Positions 10,131-59,835 of a stretch of 64,000 bases of DNA are shown piece by piece. The notes beneath the pieces are model-generated. The model saw nothing but the letters and a program-made list of their open reading frames with translations. It was not told where the DNA came from and did no database searches. Position numbers and translations under genes: made by a program. Source of the DNA: Arctopsyche grandis (taxonomy: Eukaryota; Arthropoda; Insecta; Trichoptera; Hydropsychidae); contig NC_135360.1 in assembly GCF_051622035.1 (NCBI RefSeq), positions 13,134,001-13,198,000 on the forward strand, given 5' to 3'. Within the stretch, counting starts at the first letter, position 1. Every line of letters begins with the position of its first letter.

Positions 10131-11157
10131 GAAATCGATGATTGATATTTCATCAGATTTGGGTGCGGAATATTAATGAATGGTCAACAAATATAATGGT
10201 TAGTTTGTCTTCCTTTATTTGGAATCTTATCGCTATGTGACACATGTTGATGAGTATTTAATATGAATACATACATACATACATACATGTGTTTATACAT
10301 TTTTAAAAATATTTACCGCAGAGGCTCACAGCGGTTTCTAATGAAGAAGGTGGCAAATAAACTTATATTTTAACACTGCTGCAGCATTAATACCTTTTTT
10401 TGAATGATTTTGAATAATAAAAAACAGCGGCTGGGACTTTTTCTTCATAGTCGGAATCGCTCTGATTGCCCTTGCGGAGATTATTTAAAAATATCTTGCA
10501 GATTGGAGTATGTATTATACAATGGACGTACATATGTATGTATTATACAATGTACATACACACAGGTATCGTCTTCCGTGTCGAAAGTCTGTTGACGTTA
10601 AAGGTCTCCAACTATGGACTACTACTCTATTCTCTATGTATTAATTTTCGCTATAGTAAATTTCCCAAATGATTGTTACTAAAATCTTGCTACAAATTCC
10701 AGTACATCCTCTTCACTTGCATTTAAATTATCGTCTTCATTATATCCTTCCATACATACATACATACATATGTACATACATCTTTATATGAGCCAATTTA
10801 TCAACACACAGTTCAAATATGCGAAGTCTATCGGTGTTGCCAATGCATCCGTCGCAACGTACTATTTAAACAAACTGACCGGAAATCGCCCCCCCCCCCC
10901 TATCGTCTCGTTCACTCTCGTACACGTTTAAATTAAAACGGAGGATGAAAGTCGAATGCGATGTCTTTGTGTGTTTTATTTGCGCGGTAAATTCGCGCAC
11001 GAACGTTTCATAATGCAACCGACGAAACGGAAAATGAGCGCTTCATTAGACCACGAGATAGTGCAGGGGCGTACGCCCTTCTAGGCGTCAAGAAATCTCG
11101 CCTCGGGCGTGACTATTAAACTGGCGCCCTTCGAGCCAATCGACTCGTCAAAATCTG
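10131..11157. other. Gene-free spacer
   Basis: Contains CATA microsatellites (about 10268 and 10752) and a 12-C tract at 10889-10900. The stretch 11041-11157 directly precedes the truncated LINE and has no recognised coding content. Confidence 0.5.
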
Positions 11158-12210
11158 ATGATGAGAATGGTGCAATTTATATATTGTTTAGTTGCATTTC
11201 AGTCTTCAAACTATCTTTTAACTAGTCGTATAATAAATGAACAATTTGGATTTCGCACTGGACATTCCACGACCCAACAACTAACAAGACTAACTGAACA
11301 CGTCACGAAGAACTTTAATATGAAGAGAAGTACCGGAATGGTATGTCTCGACATAGAAAAGGCCTTCGACACGGTTTGGCACGATGGACTCATTCATAAG
11401 CTCCTTATTAACAAAATACCAAACTACCTAATTATCATCATCAAATCGTACCTAACTCGTAGAAAGCTAGTGGTTAGCGTAAATAATGAATTATCGTCTC
11501 CAAAAATAATCGCAGCTGGCGTTCCGCAGGGGAGCTTGCTTGGCCCACTCTTGTTCTCCATATATATAAATGACATACCTATTCCAAAAAACTGTCACAT
11601 AGCCCTATATGCAGATGATACCGCTTGCTTCACAAGTAGCAAAAAACCAGACACTATTCTTAAAAATCTTGAATTCGCAATTAAAACAATGACTGAACAC
11701 TTCACTAAGTGGAAAATTCAAATTAATCAAACCAAAACAGACGCCATATTCTTTAGTGTTAGAAAGCATAAGCCAAGTTCAGATCTGAAAATCCCCTCTG
11801 GAGAAAGTCTGAAATGGCAGTCAGTAATAAAATATTTAGGAGTAACGTTCGATAAAAGAATGAGATGGGCACCTCACATTGAGGCAGCGAAATGCAAGGC
11901 GATGCGGGGTATATCCTCAATATATCCAATATTTAATCGCCATAGTTCTTTATCAACGCTAAATAAAATAAAATTATATCGCGCGCTCATATTACCATTA
12001 TTAACGTATGCTTCACCTGTATGGAATAACGCCTCGAATACTAACCTTTCCAAGCTCCAAGTAATACAAAATAAATCCCTAAAAATAATTTATAATACAC
12101 CCATATATACTAACCTGAAAAAACTGCATGCCATATATAATATTCCGTTTGTTACAGACATTACTAACAAACTAACCAGTAGATTCTATGACAGAATCAC
12201 TAATAACTAG
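11158..12210 (+). pseudogene. 5'-truncated LINE ORF2, Jockey-like reverse transcriptase
   Basis: The 350-aa open frame holds most of a non-LTR reverse transcriptase: QFGFRTGHST near residue 29, motif A DIEKAFDTVWH near 65, motif B GVPQGSLLGPLLFS near 121, motif C YADD near 151, and KYLGVTFDKRMRW near 227. A C-terminal LTYASPVWNNAS segment follows. These motifs fit the Jockey superclade. The upstream endonuclease and the N-terminal RT blocks are absent, so the copy is 5'-truncated at about 11200, as is usual for LINEs. The frame is uninterrupted, so the insertion is fairly young. The first ~17 residues are probably flanking DNA. Confidence 0.9.
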
Positions 12211-28430: not shown

Positions 28431-29690
28431 AGTTTAGTTATAGTGACATTATAGATATACTCCAGGGCGTCACTATAGCTAGGCATATATACATACATAC
28501 ATACATGAAAAAACAAAAGATACAAAAATAAAAATTAAATATCAAAATGTAATAAGATGTACATAAACAAAAAAAATCTCGAGTTCAAATTTTCGTACGA
28601 TCACAAAACTTAATCTATTGTTAATACGTACATAGATAAATTAATAAAGCATGAAGATAATGTTTACAATACTTTAGTAAAGAACAAACATAATAGAAAA
28701 ATAAAAAAAATAAAATGAAATATGAAAAATTAAATGTAAGAACAGATCTCAAATTAAACAATTCCTCAACCAGATCTGCATAATTTAGATTGAACAAATC
28801 CAAGTTAATAGAAATCATAAGATAAGCTGCTTACTATCCAGTTACATATATGTACATTTACATACTTCTTCTTAAATCTGTTCATTTCTATGGCAACTAT
28901 GATACCATGCCAAAAAATTTTATTATTTATTGTTTATTATTTATTATTTATTTACATACATATATTGTTAAGAAGTTTTCTTGTGAAATGTTTTTCTCAA
29001 GTTGTTTCTCTGTTGCGTTCTGAAAATTAACAATGTAGAAAGTGGAATTTGACTAAACATTTGATGTTCAGGACTATGGAATAAATAATAAGTATGTTAA
29101 AATTGATTATTGAATATTCTTAGTGAAAATTATACATAAATGCTTGACGAGACCAATAATTAAAAAAAACATTGTCTTTGACGGAACGCCTATATAAAAA
29201 ATGAATTTTCCAATGGCTTCTGAACTGTGTGCGACTTAATATGAACACGTACATACATGTTAAATCGTAAATATGTGTAGTATTACATGTATTTAATTTA
29301 CATTATTCATTATTTGTGTTAATTTTATTTATTTTATATGAATTTTCAATATGCGCCATTTTATGCAAAAGAATTACACATGTACATATATATATGTACA
29401 TATTGCAGGTTTTAATTAAAAAATCACAACTTTTGGGAATTCGCTATGATTGATGTTGTTTTGTGATACTCAAATAGTACATTGTATGCATTTAATTACA
29501 TTGAATCGTTGTGTGATTTATTACGTTGCTAAGTAAACAAATGTTGTTATATATCTATGGCTACGCGAGTCAATTTTCCGGGCTTGTAGACCTAAGCGCA
29601 CGCTTTTCCACCGTTTTATCGATACAACATTGACGAGAAGTAAGATAAAACGCGTCCAAAATTAAAACCTAATCAAAAGCAATTTTCACA
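28431..29690. other. Spacer upstream of IQUB
   Basis: The stretch 28431-28860 is T-rich then A-rich repeat-tail-like DNA with CATA repeats near 28488. The rest is AT-rich. No obvious core promoter can be named; the IQUB 5' UTR presumably lies within the last ~150 bp, which is less AT-rich (29560-29690). Confidence 0.4.
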
Positions 29691-32352
29691 ATGGAAAGGA
29701 AACCCATCATACGCCAACGCTCCGAACCGATACCAGATAGCCTCAGAACGGACGACGAGAATGTGGAGAGCAACTCATTGGACGGCAAAAGGATCAACGT
29801 AACGTTTCACGTATCGAACCAAAACGATGACCACTTCAAGAGGTCCTTCAAGTACTCGTCCACAGTCGGAGATGTCAAGAGGAAGCTGTCCAAGCTATTG
29901 AAAACAACCACGGACAACATCACCATCCTCAAAAACGATTCGACTCTATCAGACGACGTGCGCATTTCAACTTTGGAGTCGGACGCGGAAGTGGAGATTT
30001 TCACCAAGGATGACAGCTTCATAGACGTGGACATTGTCAAGGAAAAGTTCAACGAGTCGATATCGGTAATCGTTCACGAAGAACCTCCGAAGAAAATCAT
30101 TCCGCAGAATATCACTTGCAAATTCCACGTGGTCAACCAGCATCACTACTTCACGAAATTATTCCCATGCTACAGTACGATACAAGTCATGAAGGAAAAA
30201 CTTTCAAGCCTATTGGTAGTCGAACAAAGTGTACTTTTGCTCGTTAAAAACAAATCCATCTTGACCGACGATACCCAATTGTCAGATTTGGAAATAGACA
30301 ACTTTGGAAATTTAGAAGTCGAATTGTACACTAAAGATGGAACCAAAATGAAATTCGACACTGTGTATAAAGACGTGCCTATTTCGGACATTTTAACCGT
30401 AGCTATTCCTTTGGGACCAAATAGAATCATCAATGTCAATGTTGAAGTCATCGATACACGTATCGTCAAACCTTATTTGGGAGGCTATCGCAATAAAATA
30501 ACAGGTAGTTTTTTTATTAATTTTATTAAATAGAAAATTACTTTTACATAATATATAATTTTATTTGTTTCAGGCTTGGAATATCACCATGCGTTTACGC
30601 AAACTCAAGACTTTCGCTCAAAAGTGCCTCCCGAAAAGAAAAATCACAGAGATACACAAACCGTGACTGTCAGAGATACTGCTATTGTAAGTTGACTGAG
30701 ATTTATGAAATACATGGTTGTATATTTTTGACCTTTTTTAGTTTTTATGTAGGATACTGGCACCAGCCGTGGTACCCAAATATATGGTAGGGGTGTTTAC
30801 GTGCCCAACGTTACAGACGTCGTGTTGTTAGCGAGACCACATTGGCCCAATGTTACTCAAACTGTGGCGCAAAAACGACGTACGGAATGTGCTATTCGTA
30901 TTCAAAGAGCCTGGAGAGCTTATCGATGCAGAAAAGCAGTCAGTGGTTGGCTGATACAGTGCAGGTAATCCGATTTATATATGTATATGTACCTATGTAA
31001 GATAAAATTATGATATTATTTTTAATTTGAGAAAAATTTATGATTATACTCATAAAATAACATTACGGCATGTCTGTTTCAGGAAACGAATAGAAAATTT
31101 GAAGAACGAAGATCTGGAAGAGATACGAATACGTGATCTCAGACTGAAAAAGGAAATGATTGCCAAGACATTTCCCAGAACTAGAGAAGATTTTGATCAA
31201 TTATATGCTATGGTTGTCATTTTATTTTATTTCAATGAATGATTTTCTTTTATGACATAATATTTATTATATTTGTTTTAGGTTGATAGGTGGAGAAATA
31301 CTGAAATAGCTCGCATATCAAAATTTCACACTAAAGGTCCCAAAGTTGCTGAATTCAGTTTGCTGTTGGATAAAGAAATTCAGTTGTTGAGGTCTATAGA
31401 AAAATTTAGGGTTGAATTGATAGAAGATTTTAGGAAAATGAAAGAAAAGAACCTTTTGGAAGAGATGTCGAAACCGGTAGTTTGGCAAAATTCTAAAGGG
31501 AAAATTATCACAATGGACACTATGGAAGCTCAAAAAGCAAGAGAACTAAAAGATATATATACGGAGTTCTGCAAAGAGGATTTGGGCTTAGAAGACAGGA
31601 TGAAATTGTTAGTGAACTTCAAGTATACATTGGCTAATTACAAAACTCCTTTGGCGTATCAGTTGAGCTCGTTGATCGACAGGGAGTGCGATTTGACCGT
31701 GAGAAACGTCCCTGCCAAATTTTTAGACGTATTACGGAAGAGAATCCACACGACACTCTTTCAGTTCATCAAGAGCTCTGAGTTTAGTGGAAACGTAGCT
31801 GCAAAGCACAAGGAGAGAACCGCTAAAAACATGGAAGGTGAACGCTTATATTATTGCAGTCAGTGCGACAATGTGAAAATGTACACGAAATTTCCCCTGC
31901 ACTCCAGGACTAAAAATATGAACATGTGCACGGCCTGCTCCTGGAGTAACTTTGCAGAACAAAACTGGGTGGACATGACACCGTACAAGTTCATGCTGAG
32001 AGCGGTTCGGCGCGAGGAGCGCAAGAATAAATGTTTGTCGTCGATAGCTTTCGTGATTCAAGAGAAGGATGTTTACTTCATCGTTGACAAGGTCTGGCAT
32101 TCGCGATCCGCCATCAGTGAGTACGACGACATTATAGACTTGCGTCTCTGTCGGTGGAACGTGCTCGAAGATTGGTCCCCGTGGAACTGCATCCTCCTGA
32201 CGTTCAGGGAAATGAAGTCTCATTTGAAGTTGATAGAACCGGAAAAAATGTACGACGCCGATCTTGTTCAAAAAGTTCACAGCAAGCTCTTGCTCGCCAA
32301 AACACATTTCAAACATTTGATGGAATTCAAACGCGATAGTCCAGTACAGTAA
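29691..32352 (+). CDS. IQUB: IQ and ubiquitin-like domain-containing protein (IQUB homologue), 5 exons
   Basis: Exons: 29691-30504, 30574-30686, 30753-30964, 31083-31212, 31282-32352. All have GT-AG borders and compatible phases, giving 779 aa, close to the ~790 aa of vertebrate IQUB. Order of parts: a disordered N-terminus; two ubiquitin-like domains (about residues 35-107 and 141-217) that clearly resemble each other; an IQ motif in exon 3 (AIRIQRAWRAYRCRKAV); a charged coiled stretch (KRIENLKNEDLEEIRIRDLR); and the conserved C-terminal region with a Cys pair motif (CSQC ... CTAC), possibly metal-binding. In mammals IQUB binds calmodulin and is linked to radial spokes of sperm flagella; an axonemal role here is inferred. 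The start has context CACAATGG and is the first ATG of the frame. Identity is by recognition of domain order and length. Confidence 0.92.
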
Positions 32353-52535: not shown

Positions 52536-54053
52536 TTATAAAGAGCCGGAATCGAACAGCGACCCCCTCGTGATAAGAATGTCAGCGTATGGCTCGTCTT
52601 GTGAGATCTGCAATACTTGAACTTTCTTCAACACCAGTAAACTATAGAACTTCTGCGCAACCTGCAAAACATTGAAAACGAATTAAAACATGCTTCCAAT
52701 CGACCAACAAACTGCCACACATGCATACAATATTCACATATGTACCTGTTTGCGTTTATTCCTATGAGTCATTTCACTAAGATACAACTGCCCTCTTTCT
52801 ACCAATTTGGATCGCATCTGCGCGAACAGTTGAGTCGCTCTCTTATTTAAAACCCTCTCTTCAAACTGCTCGTCCGTTTCATCTTGCAGCTGCTCCTCAC
52901 CATTCTATAAAACGAGCTCGATTAATCAAACATAAAAAATATAGACATGCATTTACTAACATCGTAGAGGCGCACGTACATGACCAACACTAGGAGGAAA
53001 TTCATAGTCGTCCTGCGGACTATGCGGTTGATGAGCTTCATCATAGCCCATGTTCGCCATACAAACACTGCCAATTCCAGACTAATCAAAAGATAACACA
53101 TTAGTTTGAAATACAACAAACAAAAGTCGAACAAAAAAAATATATTGTTACAAAACGAACTTGATAGTGATGAGTTTGTTCGCCTAATCCATGCAAAGGT
53201 AAAGGTTCCATCGGTAAGGTGTGTTCAAGATCGCCTCGAGCGGGAGTAGGAGGTGCACCCGAAACTCCCATACTTCCGACTCCACCCACTTCCCCGTCAC
53301 CGAGTAGTGAAGAAACCTGACAAAATCAAATAATAATAAATTAGAAATTTAGTCTTGTTATAGTTTTCTTCGAGAATAAGCGAAAACGCACCTGATCAAC
53401 AGGTAAGTGTGGCATCATAGGCATGTCGTCGACCATACCGTGCTGTAGCGCAGACGGTGTCATATGCAACATAGAGCCATGCTGCAATCCCGCAGGCGTC
53501 ATACCACCGTGCTGAAGCCCAACCGGTGTCATTCCACCGTGTTGCATCATGTCGCCGTGCTGCAAGCCAGCCGGTGTCATTCCACCGTGATGCAGTCCAG
53601 CGGGCGTCATGCCTCCATGGTGCAAACCAGCCGGCGTCATACCACCGTGGTGCAAACCGGCAGGAGTCATACCGCCGTGGTGTAACCCGGCTGGAGTCAT
53701 ACCGCCGTGGTGTAGCCCCGCTGGAGTCATACCGCCATGGTGTAACCCCACTGGAGTCATGCCTCCGTGCTGAAGACCCCCTGGGGTTAAGCCTCCGTGG
53801 TGCAAACCAGCTGGCGTTAAACCGCCATCGTGCAGACCACTCGGCGTTAAGCCTCCGTGCTGAAGACCACCAGGCGTGAGCCCGCCGTGTTGAAGACTGC
53901 CCGGAGTGATACCACCTTGGAGGAGGGTTCCCGGCGTCAGCGGTCCCAATACACCTGGAGTTAGAGGACCCAAGCTGCTAAGAATTCCACCTGAAACAGC
54001 AACATATCTGATTTAGACTCAACTCGAATTACATATAATCCTATGATAAATGA

Positions 54054-54095
<42 letters not shown>

Positions 54096-56759
54096 GGCGT
54101 TTGTGGGTCCATATCGTGGCTAGGAGTGTGTGCATAGCCGGGAGTACTAGGTGCCATAATATCTGAATTATCTAAATAAATAAAAAAAAACGATTTAGTG
54201 AAAAATAATAATCAAATAAAGAATGAATAGTCATCAACTGTAATACCTATTGATGGTTGATATTCTTGTGGAATAGGAGTTGGCGGTTCTAATTCTTGTA
54301 GCATTTCAGGTTCATGAATAGGAGTAGCGCTGGCCTAAAATTTTATACATAGATTTGATTACATCCAGTATCTAAAATGATTTCATTCAATTTGATAACA
54401 ATAGACTGTAAATAATCACCAAATCCTCGTGTTTCCGTTTTCGACCGGAACGTCTGGCCTGTGGTGCTGGTGTGGGACTGGCTTGTTGGGCCAACATTTG
54501 TTCACCACTAGGACCATCGCCTCCAACTTCTTCAATATCTGTCGCTCGGTATGACATATTACGTTGGTAATTCTGTTATAATAAATTACAAAAATTAACC
54601 AATTACATAAGATGGAAAAAATAAATTAAAAAGATGAAAATAATTGCAAAAGTGCAAAACCTTAAATAAACTTCTTGAAGGAATCGGTCTAGCTGGAAGG
54701 GCAAATAATTTCTCAACACCGCCAGTTTCTTTCCAGTGCATTAACCTTCGCGTGGGTGGTGCAAGATCAAGTGTAGTTACAATATCAGATGTGTTGGACA
54801 GTTGATTTTTCATTTCCTCGCCGGATATATTTTTGACTTCATCGACAATTAATTTACGTTTACGCTTGGCTTTAGTTATACCTATACAAAAAAAAAAACG
54901 ATACATTAATTAAACATAAACAGTAATAATAAAGTCAAAATTGAAACAGACAAAAACACAGTACCCTTCAATACTGACGCATCAACGGGAGCTAGGGCAA
55001 AAGATTCTTCTTCGTTCTGCAACAACGTAGTGTGATCACCTTCATGAGCATCTACTCCATCACCAGGTACACCATCCCTGCCGAGATCTCCCAATCTACT
55101 CGGAGCACGCTCAATTAAACAGGGGGTATACGAACGTTCATCCAATTCCTAAAACATATACTATTATTACACACATCGGTACACAAAAACAAATGACTTA
55201 AATAAACCAGACAAACCTGAGAGTGTACACTAGGTGGTGGTACACTAGGCGGCGGTAATAAAAGATGATCTGGTAGCGGAGGACGCGCTGGAGATGGTGC
55301 GATACCATCCGGTCCCATTCCCATCGGTCCTTCAGCGGACATACTTTGGCTCTGTTGAGGCGAGCCATGCGAACCATCCCAGCTGAATTTCAAATCAAAC
55401 AATTAGGTAACGTTTTACAAATGCTAGGTATAAATGTAGTTAAAAATAAATACCTGTGTGCTGGAGACATTCCACCATCGTAATGGTCCATTCCATCATC
55501 GTCGTCATCAGAATCGGCACGACGATCGTGAGGTGCCGAAGGTCCACCTCTTCTAGGCGTGACACCTGCAGCTGCGGCTTCTTCCAAATCGCGTCGTAGG
55601 CCACCACCTCCAGGTGCAACTGCACTCGAACTTACACCGGCTCCGGACACATCTCCAAAAAGGTCACCTTCAAACAAACCTCCAGCATCTGCATCAAGAA
55701 AAATCAAATAATTAATATAATTTTATAATACTATAAAAATGACGTATTCACAAGTATTTTTATCAATACATACGTCCGAAATCATCACCGATCGTTCCGC
55801 CGAACCCATCATCCAAAGGAGGTGGGCCGGAATCCATCGGAGCGTGTTGAGATGACGGTAACGGAGTGGCTGCAGACACCATCGAAGGTCCTACACCAAC
55901 CCCTGGCACAGTTAAAGATTCTTTTCCTACCAAATCCAATGACGGACCGTCGGCAAACAATAAATTGCTCTAAAATAAATAATAACATTAAGACAAAAGT
56001 TCCAATATTAATCATAGATTTAGTACAAACGAATGAAATAAAAAACAAACTTGTTCTAGTGAAGCCTCAGGTTCCATAGCATCTCTCATGATATCGGGGC
56101 CATCGGTATCAAAACCGATATCACCAAAACCATCATCGTGAGTGACTAAATTTAATGAACCGTAGTCTTCCCTCATTGTGATTTCTTCGGCTCTCGATTG
56201 GTTCAAAGAAAACTGAGCCTCAATATCGACATCACTACAAGAAAACGACAAATTAAAAATACTCGATCGTACAAAATTACAATCATAAATCAAAATCAAA
56301 GATTACTTTAATTCAGGCATGGCCGTATCAAAATCGTGGAAAACCTCCGGCAATGTGATCGCATTCATAGCAGCTTCACGGTGTTCTTCAGGTAAATCCA
56401 CCATTCCAGGACGGAAAGCCATCTGTGAGTCATCATTGAAGGTTGAGTATTATCAAAACATACTAATGAAAGAAAAATTTATACTACAGTTCAATATATA
56501 CTTTGATTTTGACGAAGGCTTCATTACAATCAGCCAACAGATATTTGGCCTTCCTGGAGTAGATTCTAACGACGCCCAAGAGTAAATGACCTGATGTTCG
56601 CAAGGCCATTTTTACTTTCGGCTGAAGGATACCATCTACCGACTTTTCGATGTTGGTTTCGAAGACGTGAGCCTTAGTCAGCTTTTTGTCCCAATGGGCG
56701 GCCAGCCAAATTTTGGCCAGCGGGCCTTTTTTGGCCAGCACAAAATGTGCGTAAAACAT
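52536..56759 (-). CDS. Rad21: RAD21/SCC1 cohesin kleisin (verthandi), 16 exons, with internal repeat
   Basis: Minus-strand exons: 56759-56502, 56422-56307, 56234-56051, 55969-55774, 55688-55454, 55382-55217, 55148-54965, 54881-54661, 54572-54420, 54334-54247, 54171-54094, 53990-53392, 53316-53161, 53081-52980, 52904-52746, 52661-52536. GT-AG borders and phases close: 1006 aa, against ~630 in human and ~715 in fly. Residues 1-100 are the SMC3-binding N-terminus ([20 protein letters not shown]). DIMR ends at R175, aligning with the human separase site around R172. [14 protein letters not shown] and [16 protein letters not shown] mark the STAG-binding part. Residues ~627-826 (exon 12) hold about 17 TP-x-x-L units. 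Residues 913-1006 are the SMC1-binding winged helix ([15 protein letters not shown]). RAD21 closes the cohesin ring that holds sister chromatids and extrudes loops. The C-terminus ends GSLFDSGSL. Confidence 0.97.
53392..53990 (-). repeat. Coding minisatellite in RAD21 exon 12 (about 30-bp units)
   Basis: The exon encodes tandem units of the form [10 protein letters not shown]. About 17 TP-x-x-L units are readable; five consecutive ones are identical in protein, flanked by LTPGGLQ and MTPVGLQ variants. One unit is broken by a GDMMQH insertion. Units that are identical in protein use different synonymous codons (GCC, GCG, GCA, GCT for the Ala), so the array is not a very recent expansion. Confidence 0.95.
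54058..54092. repeat. (TA)n inside RAD21 intron 11, abutting the donor
   Basis: The intron begins GTATATATAT on the minus strand: the TA microsatellite starts at the donor itself. Confidence 0.9.
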
Positions 56760-59308: not shown

Positions 59309-59835
59309 TTAGATCATATTGTTGAAAGGATATCCATTGCTATTTTCTTGAGCTTTTCTATATGCAATTAACTAAAAAAACAAAAAACATTTTTAATTAA
59401 ATATTAGTATTTTTTTATATATATTCATGTAAAAAAACTAATTCAAACAATTACCCAATGTCTCAAATACGGAGAAAGGTGAAGTTTCAATTGATCTGTG
59501 TTGCCGTCATCATTATTGTCAATAAAACCTAAAATTTTATATAAATAATTCATGTAAAACTATTTTACTGCTTAGAATTTATAAAATGGTATTCAAATAT
59601 TCTTAAAAATAATAACCTCCATTTCTAATAGGTATGATATCATCCCCATTGCCGAATAGATCATTAGAGGTTGGTGGATATATAGGTCTTTGTGGTACAA
59701 TTTCTTCTTGTCCCATGCGTTGATTGAATTCAGCCTGAAGTCCACGAACTCCTGGATTTGTTCCAAGATCTACAGTGCCATCAGAACGTTTGCCGTGTCC
59801 TCCGAAGCACGAATGGCCAAATGATGAACATCCAC
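59309..59835 (-). CDS. CCHa2: CCHamide-2-type neuropeptide precursor, partial (last three exons)
   Basis: Minus-strand exons 59835-59617, 59528-59455, 59371-59309 (stop at 59311-59309), GT-AG borders, phases closing. Exon one of these begins mid-codon and encodes GGCSSFGHSCFGGHGKR. The predicted hormone is GCSSFGHSCFGGH with a C-terminal amide (Gly donor before the Lys-Arg cleavage site) and a Cys-Cys disulphide, the pattern of insect CCHamide-2. The remaining ~100 residues are a spacer ending SPYLRHWLIAYRKAQENSN and a short tail. In flies CCHamide-2 is made in gut and fat body and signals through a GPCR to control feeding and insulin release; the same role here is by homology. The signal-peptide exon must lie upstream (above 59836 or outside the window); I could not find it. 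Confidence 0.92.

Follow-up and report, generated by a model that had tools for sequence, protein, structure and literature searches.

An array of 17 Thr-Pro-x-x-Leu units under peptide-level selection in the RAD21 linker of Arctopsyche grandis

Kleisin linkers are usually seen as largely unstructured tethers, as stated in PMC10656103. RAD21 (alpha-kleisin) of Arctopsyche grandis, the gene for which lies in the 64,000-nt stretch of DNA analysed here (the window), shares with the animal RAD21/Scc1 proteins (human, PDB 7zjs, 6wg3) the N-domain, the STAG-binding segment, the winged helix and, by sequence, the region of a putative first separase-type site. It differs in the linker between the second and third blocks of the phmmer alignment, which comprises about 290 residues (624-914) in Arctopsyche grandis, whereas human RAD21 has about 50 (486-537). 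The shortest cohesin proteins reported for sawflies in PMC13239252 are RAD21, at 753 residues, and by this one comparison the 1006 residues found here are long.

The additional linker sequence contains an array of Thr-Pro units, several features of which are known from other proteins. Short tandem repeats with a Thr-Pro site in each are found in the Spt5 CTR (PF12815). The carrier of the present array is, however, not an Spt5 protein, the four Pfam families matched in its whole length being only two Rad21 domains and two repeat models; Spt5 proteins carry NGN and KOW domains. The N-terminal domain of SF3B1/SAP155 likewise gathers many Thr-Pro dipeptides in one domain, but it belongs to another protein and complex, and its TP-rich domain is not known to be a regular decapeptide array. 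The IcmE/DotG repeats, PF25296 and the pentapeptide solenoids share with the array a 10-residue register in which every fifth position is hydrophobic; they differ in their unrelated protein context, and the array has no confident predicted fold. Finally, elastin-like polypeptides, which follow a P-x-G rule, resemble the array in this motif (13 of the 17 units here), in being Gly-rich and in being nearly uncharged, yet the array is His-rich, is built of T-P units and resides in a nuclear chromosome protein. No mention of a TP array in RAD21 was found among the titles and abstract beginnings retrieved from open-licence PubMed Central papers.

RAD21 gene model and the exon 12 array

The 16 exons of the RAD21 model (Table 1) were spliced manually at GT/AG borders; their phases agree, and a single frame stays open up to the stop. 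The identity of the gene, proposed earlier in a sequence-only reading, was confirmed by Pfam matches to Rad21_Rec8_N (PF04825, residues 1-103, 143 bits, E 4.8e-42) and to the Rad21_Rec8 winged helix (PF04824, 59.8 bits, E 1.6e-16), as well as by the phmmer match between human RAD21 and the 1006-residue protein (E 1.4e-129). The alignment with human RAD21 (7zjs_B) consists of three blocks, residues 1-178, 422-623 and 915-1001 here, the C-terminal one being paired with human residues 538-628. The STAG-binding segment was located from sequence alignment with two human RAD21 fragments which we take to have been solved with STAG, 4pk7_B (residues 411-527 here) and 4pju_B (423-527). The C-terminal winged helix of kleisins binds SMC1. 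In the region of the first separase-type site, DIMR at residue 172 aligns with human EIMR. Human IEEPSRLQE, presumably the second separase site, aligns with IHEPEMLQE in exon 10 (residues about 577-585), and because the Arg is missing from this stretch the second site seems to be absent from Arctopsyche grandis RAD21; within the array, no separase-type [DE]xxR motif occurs. The exon 1 protein and the Pfam N-domain model each had one match in the 476 Mb genome of the species itself, so that a second kleisin with a RAD21-type N-domain was not found there at the sensitivity used.

Table 1. Positions in the window of RAD21, of its parts and of other features
Feature	Positions	Strand	Content and basis
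RAD21 (alpha-kleisin) CDS	52536..56759	-	16 coding exons, 1006 aa; GT/AG borders, Pfam
Exon 1	56502..56759	-	most of the N-terminal SMC3-binding domain; PF04825
Exon 8	54661..54881	-	most of the STAG-binding segment, residues 447-520; inside human-aligned 411-527
Exons 10 and 11	54334..54247, 54171..54094	-	non-repeated Thr-Pro-rich stretch ahead of the array
(TA)19 microsatellite	54055-54092		perfect repeat in intron 11
Exon 12	53392..53990	-	17 TP-x-x-L units, residues 627-826; splicing model, Tandem Repeats Finder
Exons 15 and 16	52536..52904	-	C-terminal winged helix; PF04824 at residues 951-999, human alignment
CCHamide-like frame	about 59603-59833	-	presumed neuropeptide precursor, by look
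Reverse transcriptase frame	11113-12207	+	open 365-aa frame; PF00078
IQUB-like frame	31282-32349	+	open frame; PF25805
Frame upstream of the preceding	29673-30530		open frame

Exon 12 measures 599 nt between its AG and GT borders on the minus strand and encodes 200 residues with 17 Thr-Pro dipeptides, all 17 of them in TP-x-x-L. The array of about 17 such units that had been read in one exon was therefore counted as 17, and the coordinates given for it, 53392..53990, are exact; its placement after the STAG-binding part and ahead of the C-terminal winged helix was confirmed, the stretch having no aligned human counterpart, and the lengthening of the linker by ~200 residues matches the 200 added by the exon. 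Thirteen of the 17 units fit GG[MLI]TPxGL[HQ][HD], and in all 17 column 2 is M, L or I and column 7 is L. The spacing from one TP to the next is 8, then 10 twelve times, then 16, 10 and 13; Tandem Repeats Finder independently reported periods of 30, 60 and 90 bp across 53547-53897. TP-x-G-L is present in 13 units, so that P-x-G occurs 13 times in exon 12 and 4 times in the remaining 806 residues of the protein. The exon is dominated by G (53), L (28), H (25), P (22), T (18) and M (17), with fewer A, I, V, S, Q and D, and K, R, E, F, W and Y are all missing from its 200 residues. Chance can be excluded as the source of the dipeptides, 17 TP having been reached in 0 of 4000 shuffles of exon 12 (shuffle mean 1.96).

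The units were first picked by TP, so that T and P are bound to be invariant among all 17 of them. When [LMI][HQ][HQDM] anchors were used instead, which are independent of TP, the dipeptide was found four residues upstream in 15 of 17. The claim that every unit has a Thr-Pro thus holds for these 15, but not for the two short fragments GDMMQH and GSMLH. With G[GDS][MLI] as the anchor, TP came next in 14 of 20 cases, the six misses being GGILS, where the array starts, the two fragments just named, and three GSL/GGL within units that have a TP upstream.

Single-sequence AlphaFold2 modelling of exon 12 alone gave a pLDDT of 43.9 and a pTM of 0.10, with no secondary structure. The suggestion that the linker could be a low-complexity region is borne out at the level of sequence by this pLDDT and by the six absent amino acids. 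Because single-sequence AlphaFold2 models are often poor, the prediction is only weakly suggestive of a disordered array.

Repeat families were also matched by exon 12, and two controls, the array with columns 6 and 7 swapped and the array reversed, were searched in parallel. A phmmer search found the IcmE/DotG decapeptide repeats (E 7.5e-26) and designed repeat proteins of the beta1 series (3beta1, E 4.1e-13), which we take to be pentapeptide solenoids. Both matches disappeared from the swapped control, which gained a pentatricopeptide repeat protein at E 1.2e-7, while only 4yfo (E 0.097) was left for the reversed one. The resemblance to repeat proteins follows the register of hydrophobic residues every five positions, and since a different repeat protein is gained by the swapped control at 1.2e-7, E-values for such repeats must be discounted and the scores carry little weight. 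In Pfam, exon 12 scored 45.5 bits with PF12815 (cut-off 25.4) and 56.7 bits with PF25296 'Decapeptide' (cut-off 45); these were its only matches, and no Pfam pentapeptide family was found at E 0.01. The match to the Spt5 CTR model is probably one of pattern and no sign of kinship, because the swapped control scores higher with PF12815 (95.2 bits) than exon 12 itself. Neither control matches PF25296, and we take this match to be a resemblance in hydrophobic register; the reversed control matches PF15240, under the cut-off. Taken on sequence, the Pfam and PDB repeat matches would reflect pattern, not membership.

Constraint on the repeat peptide

The comparison of synonymous with nonsynonymous divergence between units gave pS 0.755 and pN 0.211 for all 17 units. 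For the 13 core units (78 pairs) the values were 0.774 and 0.109, but these units were chosen by peptide pattern, which biases pN downwards and keeps TPxxL by construction, so that the 17-unit pN and the TP-free anchors (15/17) are the safer figures. By codon position, the differences between core units number 506 at position 3, 105 at position 1 and 46 at position 2. In the two other sense frames and in two of the three antisense frames the nonsynonymous proportion exceeds the synonymous one; the remaining antisense frame behaves like the coding one (ratio 0.276), a signal taken as the shadow of shared wobble positions. Alternative open frames in the array (193 aa in another minus frame, 134 aa in a plus frame) were rejected as a byproduct of the 30-bp period, the codon test lending them no support.

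Codons for the same residue (Met excluded) mismatch in 405 of 608 comparisons (0.666), where codons drawn independently would give 0.668 (sd 0.026) with the usage found elsewhere in the gene and 0.645 (sd 0.030) with that of the array itself. The agreement with independent draws means that the synonymous sites of the array are saturated. Across the 17 units T and P each use all four of their codons and L all six. The Leu of TP-x-x-L, which played no part in picking the units, is unchanged in all 17. Five identical decapeptide units are encoded by five different DNA sequences, with 2-9 of 30 bases differing. When neutral decay was simulated in a simple way up to the 4-fold divergence observed, no more than 2 of the 13 units still had TPxxL in any of 300 runs, whereas 15 of the 17 anchors chosen independently of TP have one. 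With synonymous sites saturated and peptide differences few, the array is old and its peptide is selected; the earlier argument from synonymous codon differences between identical units, namely that the peptide sequence is maintained, is upheld by the five such units and by the 17-unit pS and pN. Adjacent units are less diverged than distant ones (52 of 98 codon comparisons mismatched, or 0.53, versus 0.62 to 0.82 further apart), from which it follows that some turnover of units is still ongoing. At insect synonymous rates saturation takes on the order of 100 million years, and because the synonymous sites are saturated, the array may, as a rough estimate, be of about that age, which predicts its presence in related families. 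Fully scrambled synonymous sites together with a kept peptide indicate that a selected repeat module can be built into the linker of a kleisin.

Possible roles of the array

The reading that we tentatively prefer, with a confidence somewhat short of even, is that exon 12 is an old, selected extension of the disordered linker of mitotic kleisin RAD21 that serves as a multisite phosphothreonine platform. Of the 24 Thr-Pro sites in residues 528-912, the array offers 17, most of them in a regular 10-residue register; proline-directed kinases of the CDK, MAPK or DYRK class would phosphorylate the array, a threonine-preferring phosphatase such as PP2A-B55 would clear its phosphates, and its charge state would control how far the linker extends or whether a reader is recruited at cohesin. 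The phosphorylation, the reader and any consequence for cohesin are putative here. According to PMC8370769, PP2A-B55 prefers phosphothreonine, and in sea star oocytes TP sites are dephosphorylated earlier than SP sites; according to PMC1420302, binding of the FHA protein NIPP1 to the TP-rich domain of SF3B1 depends on CDK phosphorylation. The latter dependence is a property of SF3B1, whereas phosphorylation of the array is putative. None of the array TPs has the full CDK consensus S/T-P-x-K/R, which occurs in the whole protein at residues 295, 360 and 850 only, and since none does, they would be minimal proline-directed candidate sites only. The sole S-[ST]-P of the protein, presumably a polo-box-type motif, is at residue 609 in exon 11. 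If phosphorylated, the array would be a natural system for testing the effects of linker charge and length on cohesin.

The closest rival to the phosphothreonine platform is a selected spacer or self-associating, elastic linker, kept for its length, flexibility or self-association, in which Thr-Pro would be a matter of chemistry and not a phosphosite; this is a doubtful but substantial competitor. Constraint on TPxGL could stem from turn-forming or spacer chemistry instead of phosphorylation, and the P-x-G turns, so much more frequent in exon 12 than elsewhere in the protein (13 against 4), fit a spacer too, as do the Leu or Met at every fifth residue (columns 2 and 7 in 17 of 17 units), the near absence of charge (no K, R or E, nor F, W or Y) and the 25 His; elastin-like peptides phase-separate with temperature, according to published abstracts. 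What a spacer leaves unexplained is the clustering of Thr-Pro in the non-repeated left flank and the absence of Ser in place of Thr. In that flank (residues 528-626) six of seven Thr precede Pro (shuffle mean 1.13, six reached in 0 of 4000), five of these in exons 10-11 and one at residue 554 in exon 9. The N-terminal linker (residues 179-421) has three of five Thr before Pro (p 0.016), and the right flank (residues 827-912) one of three, which is not significant (p 0.32); over residues 528-912, 24 of 28 Thr are Thr-Pro. No enrichment of Ser-Pro was found in any segment tested (528-626, 827-912 and 179-421 among them), SP does not occur in exon 12, and in no unit does Ser replace Thr. Because the enrichment extends beyond the array, the array appears to belong to a wider Thr-Pro bias of the linker, and this makes a role specific to Thr-Pro more likely than that of a pure spacer.

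A more far-reaching form of the phosphothreonine platform, which we consider unlikely, is that the cohesin ring of this insect lineage has a CTD-like code of its own, in the form of a phosphothreonine module of 17 repeats and ancient origin in the kleisin linker. Over the cell cycle, the phosphorylation state of this module would determine how far the linker extends, whether it condenses or whether readers bind, and Thr would be used over Ser for threonine-selective dephosphorylation at the exit from division.

A slowly evolving minisatellite expansion without specific function, tolerated in a disordered linker, is improbable. The 30-bp tandem periods, the flexibility of the kleisin linker and the greater similarity of neighbouring units, a sign of unit turnover, would all suit it, but saturated synonymous sites with few peptide differences do not, and a neutral array that old would have lost TPxxL; on the codon tests and the neutral simulation it is disfavoured.

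It is quite improbable as well that exon 12 is alternative, or partly spliced out, so that most RAD21 would lack the array. Since the length of exon 12 is 2 mod 3, skipping it alone shifts the frame ahead of the winged helix, and for this reason its inclusion is probably constitutive, as judged from the gene model; the coding constraint moreover implies that the exon is translated often enough for selection. Joint loss of exons 10-12 (88+78+599=765 nt) would nevertheless preserve the frame, and exon 12 holds splice-like words (6 GTATG and 5 TTGCAG or CTTCAG, raw counts).

It is highly improbable that the kleisin contains an insertion folded as a pentapeptide-type beta-solenoid, for although the beta1-series (4.1e-13) and IcmE/DotG (7.5e-26) scores vanish on swapping columns 6 and 7, and on reversal leave only 4yfo, the match of the swapped copy to a pentatricopeptide repeat protein means that any such repeat can yield small E-values, the AlphaFold2 model (pLDDT 43.9, pTM 0.10) has no secondary structure, no Pfam pentapeptide family matches at E 0.01 and, to our knowledge, a Pro recurring in each second pentad would be unusual in a solenoid of this type.

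Matches elsewhere and other features of the window

A search of the 476 Mb genome with the array returned one full match, the array itself, and four partial ones (35-46% identity, E 4.2e-11 to 2.1e-4), three of the latter with internal stops. At the four partial loci, frames of at least 80 residues with at least 4 TP or more than 20% Gly were sought; no TP-rich frame and a single Gly-rich one (L005) were found among L005-L008. The partial matches were rejected as related arrays, being weak, interrupted by stops in three cases and devoid of TP-rich frames. In viral contigs three stretches with the array pattern were encountered, none of which was confirmed. The exon 1 peptide of RAD21 had one weak locus in the viral contigs (L001, residues 15-70, 38%) and two in the genome contigs, L002 and L003, the latter a contig end with 27 residues matched. 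L002 (10001-10261) is a RAD21-like gene with 57% identity over exon 1 in a record labelled as a Deltaproteobacteria MAG, and is likely a eukaryotic contamination. Open stretches of 50 or more residues containing at least 5 TP were sought at the loci; L002 had none in the RAD21 orientation and, on the other strand, one 178-residue frame with 6 TP.

Next to the array exon, the perfect (TA)19 microsatellite accounts for 38 nt of intron 11, which is 103 nt long. Several further frames were observed in the window (Table 1). Upstream of RAD21, on the same strand, a frame reading GCSSFGHSCFGGHGKRSDG... has, by look, what we take to be the features of a CCHamide-type neuropeptide precursor; it has no Pfam match. 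The frame upstream of the IQUB-like one has no Pfam match either and may be part of the same gene. The frame with a reverse transcriptase domain probably represents, by its look, a non-LTR-type element.
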